NCBI GenBank assembly: GCA_002688175.1
Contig: NZCC01000053.1
Coordinates: forward strand, 1 to 64,000
DNA: 64,000 nucleotides
Direction: 5' to 3'
Source of the DNA: Chromatiales bacterium
GTDB taxonomy: Bacteria > Pseudomonadota > Gammaproteobacteria > Steroidobacterales > GCA-2729495
Shown: piece by piece, positions 1-1,782 of the stretch
How positions within the stretch are numbered: the stretch's first letter is position 1
Layout of the letters: the number at the start of each line of letters is the position of its first letter
The notes under the pieces: generated by a model
Databases searched by the model: none
What the model was told of the DNA's origin: nothing
What the model saw: only the letters and a program-made list of their open reading frames with translations
Program-made: the position numbers and the translations under genes

Positions 1-268
1 ATGTTATCGGCATTGAGTGGACCGGAGGCAGGGTTATAGCCTGCCTGGTTCCGTCGGCGGAAAGCGGAATTTATGCGCAACAGTATTTTCCTTAATGTAA
101 AGGCATGCATCCGGCGTGTGTCATCCAGTACAGACATAATTACTTGTTCCCGCGTGTGTGCCCCGCCAGATCGACTCTTATTGCATAAAATGTCGGGGTT
201 GGTTGTGTCGCAATATTCAGCAAATACCGATTTGCTTGTCTTGCTCAGGGAGTTGCTACATATTTCAC

Positions 269-358
269 TTTCTGAATAAAGGTATACCCGGTGAAAGCCG
301 GGGACACAAAGCCACCGGTCTACGGAACTCAGTTCTACGATAGCGGGGTTGCCAGAAA
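269..358 (+). promoter_or_regulatory. Cyclic-di-GMP-I (GEMM-I) riboswitch aptamer
   Basis: The hallmark GEMM-I segments occur in the right order. GGTATACC starts at 281, followed by a short stem closed by a GAAA tetraloop (P2), then GGGACACAAAGCC at about 300-313, then a second stem (P3), then TAGCGGGGTTGCC at 341-353. The ends pair as P1 (TTTCTG at 269-274 with CAGAAA at 353-358). These match the Vibrio cholerae Vc2 aptamer closely. By my hand alignment the base equivalent to Vc2 G20 is G, which favours c-di-GMP over cGAMP, but that single base needs a proper alignment. The aptamer overlaps the TTG at 349, so the coding start of the next gene must lie downstream. Two short hairpins between 359 and 432 (AAAAGG...CCTTTT and ACCG...CGGT) may form the expression platform. 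Confidence 0.85.
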
Positions 359-432
359 AAAAGGCCTGTCCTTTTATGTCCGTGCAACCGTCCCGGTCGG
401 TGACAACTCTATTAAGCACGGAGTCAGCAAAC

Positions 433-1782
433 ATGCCACGTAAGATCATCAGCAAGTCCAGAATGCGTACGCAGATTCAGGCTTCGGTCGTTTCGGTTTG
501 TCCGAAATCTATTGATGATGTCATCGCTATTTTGAAAGAGCCCCGGCACTATCCCGGACCGGTACGCGCAGTTGGTTCAAATAGTGGCAGCACGCGAAAT
601 GCGAGCACACATGGAACGTTGCTCGATATGACGGCAATGAAGAGCTTCAGTCGAATTTCTGCAGATACTGTCAGGGTTGGCGCCGGTATGCAGTTGCGTT
701 CGCTGGCCGATCGACTGGCCAGAGATGGGCTGGAACTTGTTGGTGGTTATGAATACCCGGAACGAACAGTGGGAGGGGTGATTAGCAGTGGATCACTTTC
801 AGCTGATATTCCGGGTGATGCGGGACATCTTGCTGCGTCGGTTATCCATTTAACGCTGGTGACGCCACGGGGCAGGGAGATTGAAGTTGGTAAAGACATG
901 CCTGAGTTGTTACGCGCAGTGCGGCAAGGTTATGGGCTCTTTGGTGTGGTTTGCACCGTAACGCTGAAAATCCGTCCGATACGTCCGTATGCCATTCGTA
1001 ATCGGGAATTTGCATTCAGTGAGTTGATGCGCTTCATCCCGGATATGTCCGAGGTAAGGGCCGGCGTCAAGATATTCCTGTTGCCGTTTCGCAACCGCGC
1101 TTTTGTCGAGTTGAGATTTGCCGGCAACGGCGATCAGCAAAGCAGCTTGCTGCCATGGAAGATCAGAGATTGGGCCTGTAATAAGGCAATTCCAGACTTT
1201 GTGCATTCGGTCGGCAGGATTGTGCCAATCAGCAAGCTCCGTGATCCGCTGATCGATGGCTTTAGTGCGGCAGCTCAGAGGCTCGTCAATAAGCGCTTGT
1301 CTGTCGTCGGCAGCAATGCAATGGAGCAAACCGGGCAATTCAGGAAATTACGTCAAGCGACGTCGGTCACTTACAGCAGTTGGCTGTTCCCCGCCGCCCG
1401 GTTTGCACAGGTGGTTTATGCCTATCGGGAATTTTGTTTGCGTCACTATAAGGTGACCGGGTTTCGCTGCGACCTGCCGGGTATAGTCTACCGAATTGGT
1501 CACGATCAAAGTGCGCTACTGTCGCCGAGCCATGATCAGGCTTTGTTTGCGCTCAATCTGCGTTCTACGAATATGGACGGCTGGGATAATTTTCTGCTCG
1601 ACTTTGCAGATCTTGCGGCCAGATTCGACGGTATCCCGTTATTCAATCAGACGCGTGGGATGTTGCCGCGTCATGCGCACGATGCTTATGGCCAGCGGCT
1701 GGTCAGGTTTCGCGAATTACGCCGCCAGCACGATGCCGAAAATCGTTGTCTGAACCAGTTTTTTGCCGAGTATATCGATTGA
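433..1782 (+). CDS. FAD-linked oxidase (VAO/PCMH family), c-di-GMP riboswitch controlled
   Basis: A 449-residue FAD/FMN-containing dehydrogenase of the aldonolactone-oxidase type (FAD_binding_4 fold). The N-terminal half holds the FAD-binding region (VRAVGSNSGSTRN; TVGGVISSGSLSADIPGD; GYGLFGVVCTVTLKIRP). The His that carries covalent FAD in many relatives (GxGHS) appears as Asn in GSNS, so flavin is probably non-covalent. I chose ATG 433 because GGAG lies 9 bases upstream and because the longer frame from TTG 349 begins inside the riboswitch. No signal peptide is visible. Substrate is unknown. The gene stands alone between the riboswitch and a convergent gene, so its expression is expected to follow cellular c-di-GMP. 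Confidence 0.85.
   Translation: MPRKIISKSRMRTQIQASVVSVCPKSIDDVIAILKEPRHYPGPVRAVGSNSGSTRNASTHGTLLDMTAMKSFSRISADTVRVGAGMQLRSLADRLARDGLELVGGYEYPERTVGGVISSGSLSADIPGDAGHLAASVIHLTLVTPRGREIEVGKDMPELLRAVRQGYGLFGVVCTVTLKIRPIRPYAIRNREFAFSELMRFIPDMSEVRAGVKIFLLPFRNRAFVELRFAGNGDQQSSLLPWKIRDWACNKAIPDFVHSVGRIVPISKLRDPLIDGFSAAAQRLVNKRLSVVGSNAMEQTGQFRKLRQATSVTYSSWLFPAARFAQVVYAYREFCLRHYKVTGFRCDLPGIVYRIGHDQSALLSPSHDQALFALNLRSTNMDGWDNFLLDFADLAARFDGIPLFNQTRGMLPRHAHDAYGQRLVRFRELRRQHDAENRCLNQFFAEYID

Follow-up and report, generated by a model that had tools for sequence, protein, structure and literature searches.

Riboswitches for c-di-GMP are mostly found before motility, pilus and surface genes. The GEMM-Ib (c-AMP-GMP) riboswitches of Geobacter have their scaffold in common with the aptamer described here and carry an A at the position of G20, where ours carries a G. 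In the c-di-GMP-I (GEMM-I) class G20 is a selectivity position (PMC9262584), and Vc2 is a translational OFF switch that works through helix P1 (PMC9262584; PMC7371385). In the 64-kb stretch of DNA analysed here (the window), a flavoenzyme gene that is transcribed on its own carries an aptamer of this class in its 5' leader, and we consider it likely that this aptamer is a translational OFF switch. Riboswitches of this class have been described before; what is new is the unusual and conserved flavoenzyme target, and possibly also the compact versions, found in some orthologues, whose aptamer would itself mask the start site. In the open literature we found no paper linking c-di-GMP riboswitches to such an oxidase.

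The aptamer and its contact residues

The Rfam c-di-GMP-I model (RF01051) matches positions 271-356 of the forward strand with 78.2 bits (E 1.1e-13; gathering score 35 bits), over its full length (model positions 1-87 of 87, not truncated), and this is the only Rfam match in the window. An initial annotation, made from the sequence alone, had called the whole interval 269-432 a riboswitch and had proposed a search with this model. The score lies far over the threshold and the reading stands for the aptamer (271-356, with P1 extendable to 269-358), while the rest of the interval, as far as the start codon, is expression platform. P1 is formed by 269-274 and 353-358; the P2 hairpin (287-302; 287-292 with 297-302) is capped by an intact GAAA tetraloop at 293-296; and the P3 arm spans 310-350 in the Rfam structure line (310-320 with 339-350, and 325-328 with 332-335 at its tip). 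The landmarks, the P1 and P2 pairings and the tetraloop that had been noted there are thus recovered by the model, and P3 pairs as well.

In an alignment of leaders from 26 orthologues, 93.4% of cells are paired (97.7% in P3). Two-sided changes occur in 13 of 25 pairs (4 of 6 in P2), a count not reached in any of 500 shuffles. Changes on both sides affect 61 cells, where shuffles give 24.6 and slid controls no more than 13; kinship among the sequences inflates such counts, and the slid controls preserve that kinship. P1 reads UCUG/CAGA, GCUG/CAGC, ACUG/CAGU or AUUG/CAAU depending on lineage, and in the Rfam alignment the window aptamer has a compensatory U-A in place of C-G. Covariation supports P1, P2 with its GAAA loop and P3, and the window RNA is a plain member of its class.

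The residues G281, A308 and C352, which we take to be equivalent to Vc2 G20, A47 and C92, are those of the c-di-GMP rather than the cGAMP type. The A found in cGAMP-type GEMM-I aptamers is absent from the position equivalent to G20, so that the check for a cGAMP variant, also proposed in the initial annotation, finds no such change in the window aptamer, and membership of the c-AMP-GMP (GEMM-Ib) group, which requires that A, was rejected. The 26-leader alignment shows no variation at the pair of G's that follows the A-rich run, at the leading A of CAAA or at the terminal CC. When 102 aptamers were checked by pattern, 101 had G at the discriminating position, the one remaining sequence not matching the pattern, and every one had A at the position of A47. 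Judged from sequence, the window aptamer therefore carries the contact residues of c-di-GMP binders. The genome encodes 14 GGDEF domains.

Six GEMM-I aptamers are present in the window's genome. One (G000:C43, L008:4102-4226, forward strand) precedes pilMNO (pilMNOP) and a secretin gene, a classic type of target that would provide a positive control within the same genome. Another, of 76.5 bits (G000:C23, L007:6202-6284, reverse strand), lies before an orphan ORF of 626 amino acids with no Pfam match; and one whose best match is RF03167 (G000:C71, L009:6624-6707, reverse strand) lies before an M23 peptidase gene followed by secA. A weak match of 38.6 bits (G000:C59, L011:3854-3970, forward strand) precedes genes for a 229-amino acid protein that may end in a PEP-CTERM-like tail and for a PrsT-like TPR protein, and this is probably a PEP-CTERM/TPR locus. 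Relatives also contain tandem GEMM-I pairs with starts approximately 200-265 nt apart (G035:C28:111525-111851; G023:C122:3454-3791; G039:C49:55803-56093; G001:C23:2056-2401).

The oxidase and its pairing with the aptamer

The gene that follows (433-1782, forward strand) encodes an FAD-linked oxidoreductase of 449 amino acids with a VAO/GALDH-like fold. Its start is ATG433, preceded at a distance of 9 nt by the Shine-Dalgarno (SD) sequence GGAG (420-423), which has a similar register in the sister-species locus L043. The longest open reading frame would begin at TTG349, inside the aptamer, and this start was rejected in favour of ATG433. The downstream neighbour (1790-2347) is on the opposite strand, which leaves the oxidase as the sole gene of its transcription unit; together with the different targets that can be read for the genome's other aptamers, this fits the earlier suggestion of a single oxidase placed on the switch.

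The product contains a single domain, FAD_binding_4 (PF01565; 62.7 bits with a cut-off of 26.4, E 3.8e-17), in agreement with the flavin oxidase that the initial annotation had named. Using NCBIfam, the protein falls far under every curated cut-off, the nearest models being those for FAD-linked oxidoreductases and sugar-1,4-lactone oxidases, and 24 aligned orthologues give the same families, again far below the curated cut-offs. Assignment as a sugar-1,4-lactone oxidase (TIGR01678, 61.1 bits against 396.8) or as DprE1 (NF053785, 34.4 bits against 500) was rejected. In an AlphaFold model (mean pLDDT 80) the nearest folds are L-galactono-1,4-lactone dehydrogenase (GALDH), alditol oxidase and DprE1, and the domain score and these fold matches together place the oxidase among VAO-type FAD_binding_4 flavoproteins. 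It has the domain and overall fold in common with all three, however, identity is only about 16-20% and the curated cut-offs are missed widely. The curated family models indicate no substrate, and conserved neighbours that might hint at one are not found beyond close relatives. Most likely the enzyme is a VAO-family oxidoreductase with a substrate resembling a sugar, a lactone or a polyol, a guess made at the level of the predicted fold. In two orthologues (L056 in G011 and L184 in G185) the segment aligned to approximately residues 256-295, which the model places in a helical hairpin, is absent, yet the aptamer is retained.

The window's genome is fragmentary (2.6 Mb, 84 contigs, 81% complete), and its named relatives are uncultured Gammaproteobacteria including Woeseiaceae. 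Among the first 40 relatives and the genome itself, the aptamer lies just upstream of the oxidase, on the same strand, in 14 of 16 loci. An order-wide scan found an oxidase orthologue in 104 of 296 genomes, with the aptamer upstream in 75 of the 82 loci whose upstream region is intact. Taken together (16 plus 82 loci), the aptamer is just upstream and on the same strand in 89 of 98 orthologue loci of the order with an intact upstream region. A further 13 loci, on other named contigs whose genomes may in part be those of the order-wide scan, all have it except for the distant homologue L095. Since carrier genomes hold about 2 to 21 GEMM-I aptamers each, chance cannot account for this pairing. 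Distant FAD_binding_4 paralogues have the aptamer in none of 11 loci. Moreover, the oxidase is nearly confined to the order: among 369 genomes sampled from across the class there were four matches, three of them inside the order, and the single locus outside it (L186) has no Rfam match. Other neighbouring genes are common only to close relatives, which leaves the aptamer as the one widely conserved partner of the oxidase. The comparative sequence evidence thus strongly supports control of the oxidase by the aptamer, as had been claimed from the window by itself, and because the aptamer is kept before one enzyme in most carrier relatives, c-di-GMP regulation is probably central to the role of that enzyme.

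The nine loci without an aptamer are L133, L166, L167, five of family f10 and one in G027. All five f10 loci (L176, L177, L179, L183 and L055) lack it, although G033, an f10 genome, contains 15 GEMM-I matches at other sites; these loci may possibly represent a natural escape from control.

Leader structure and the sign of the switch

A candidate sigma-70-like promoter, TTGTCT-N17-CATATT (236-264, forward strand), ends 5-7 nt before P1. The arrangement TTGnnn-N17/18-[CG]ATA[GT]T recurs, in similar form, at an equal distance from the aptamer in the majority of loci from the window's family and near families, and its hexamers score no better than shuffles. A scan of the leader with strict consensus sequences found neither promoter nor terminator and did not pick up this candidate.

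Between aptamer and start codon, UCCGUGC (379-385) can pair directly with GCACGGA (416-422) to form a candidate SD-masking stem, which appears in both free and aptamer-constrained folds and is identical in the sister species L072 and L043; it shows no covariation and by itself is not better than shuffles. A candidate alternative pairing, GGUUGC/GCAACC (347-352 with 384-389), seen in sequence, would rule out both the masking stem and the pairing of the aptamer 3' strand. It is preserved in L072 (GCAGCC) and is not significant when compared with shuffles. Minimum free energy folding of the whole leader gives a z-score of 0.07. Thermodynamic folds mask the SD with the 379-385/416-422 stem whether or not the aptamer is constrained, so switching is not visible in silico for the window leader. 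Complementarity of the SD or the aptamer 3' strand to the platform exceeds that of shuffles significantly mainly in one Woeseiaceae clade, and is weak overall (p 0.015 over non-independent sequences).

The orthologues are more informative about sign: 16 of 75 leaders have the SD inside the aptamer itself, in P3 or in the 3' strand of P1. In eight of them (gcGGAGuuaccaauAUG) GGAG is in the P3 3' strand, with three of its four bases paired and the A opposite a C; in seven (accGGAGacgagaAUG) GGAG lies at the P1 3' strand, with partial overlap; and in L184, which belongs to the window's own family, CAGGAG pairs with the P1 strand CUUCUG. The aptamers with an embedded SD are independently confirmed by Rfam. 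A ligand-stabilised aptamer should compete with the ribosome in these 16 orthologues, which would make the switch OFF.

The OFF sign for the window's own leader is taken over from these orthologous sequences, and for that leader we infer ligand binding, repression and a detailed rearrangement as follows. At high c-di-GMP, the sessile state, the ligand would close P1 and lock the aptamer; the locked aptamer would leave 379-385 free to pair with 416-422, which would hide the SD GGAG so that no oxidase is made. At low c-di-GMP, the aptamer 3' strand would pair with 384-389 (347-352/384-389) and the start site would open. The oxidase would thus probably be made only at low c-di-GMP. We also put forward, at even odds, that a metabolic flavoenzyme of a new substrate class belongs to the c-di-GMP regulon throughout the order and is made at low c-di-GMP only, and that some lineages control it by a minimal c-di-GMP-I riboswitch whose aptamer is its own platform, the SD lying in P3 and the start codon where P1 ends.

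The same riboswitch and target could instead form an ON switch, in which binding of c-di-GMP exposes the start site, so that sessile cells make the oxidase. Highly similar GEMM-I aptamers do act as ON switches (PMC9262584), and the folds of the window leader do not discriminate between the two signs; the embedded SD of the 16 orthologues, one of them from the window's family, nevertheless fits repression by ligand, and no terminator was found after the aptamer in the strict scan, so that we regard the opposite sign as unlikely. The identity of the ligand is a separate question from the sign, and here a response to another cyclic dinucleotide, such as 3',3'-cGAMP, appears very improbable. It would draw on a scaffold that such variants have in common and on the sister family RF03167 (c-di-GMP-I-GGC), which scores best in some orthologous leaders, but the window and the orthologues read have G, not A, at the discriminating position, and the window itself scores with RF01051. 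A shift of ligand in the GGC variant was rejected because the contact residues of the RF03167 best matches are unaltered.

It might also be argued that the aptamer is a relic and that control of the oxidase has been lost in the window's genome, given its loss from three close orthologues (L133, L166 and L167) and its absence from the f10 loci. A full-length, high-scoring match with a compensatory U-A for C-G is hardly what a relic would leave, and retention in 89 of 98 loci, in many genera and beside unrelated neighbours, makes this reading the most doubtful of all. We therefore retain the c-di-GMP-dependent translational OFF switch as our working model.

Comparison with described riboswitches

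Control of the oxidase in this way would connect an uncharacterised oxidation with the switch between motile and sessile life in uncultured Gammaproteobacteria, and the conserved link to the aptamer offers a handle for finding the substrate. The compact orthologues, with the SD in the aptamer, make the polarity directly testable; as read from sequence, they vary the expression platform structurally, in that masking of the start site would fall to the aptamer.

The Cd1 riboswitch of C. difficile, which controls flagellar genes, is of the c-di-GMP-I class and has the OFF polarity proposed here; however, Cd1 is transcriptional, whereas the strict scan found no terminator in the oxidase leader. 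Vc2, from tfoY of Vibrio cholerae, is alike in aptamer class and contact residues, and its P1 stability leads to translational repression by masking of the ribosome-binding site (PMC9262584; PMC7371385), as in the proposed oxidase switch. The two differ in that the target of Vc2 is a regulator and the target here is a flavoenzyme, and in that Vc2 uses a distant platform, whereas in 16 oxidase orthologues the SD is inside the aptamer.
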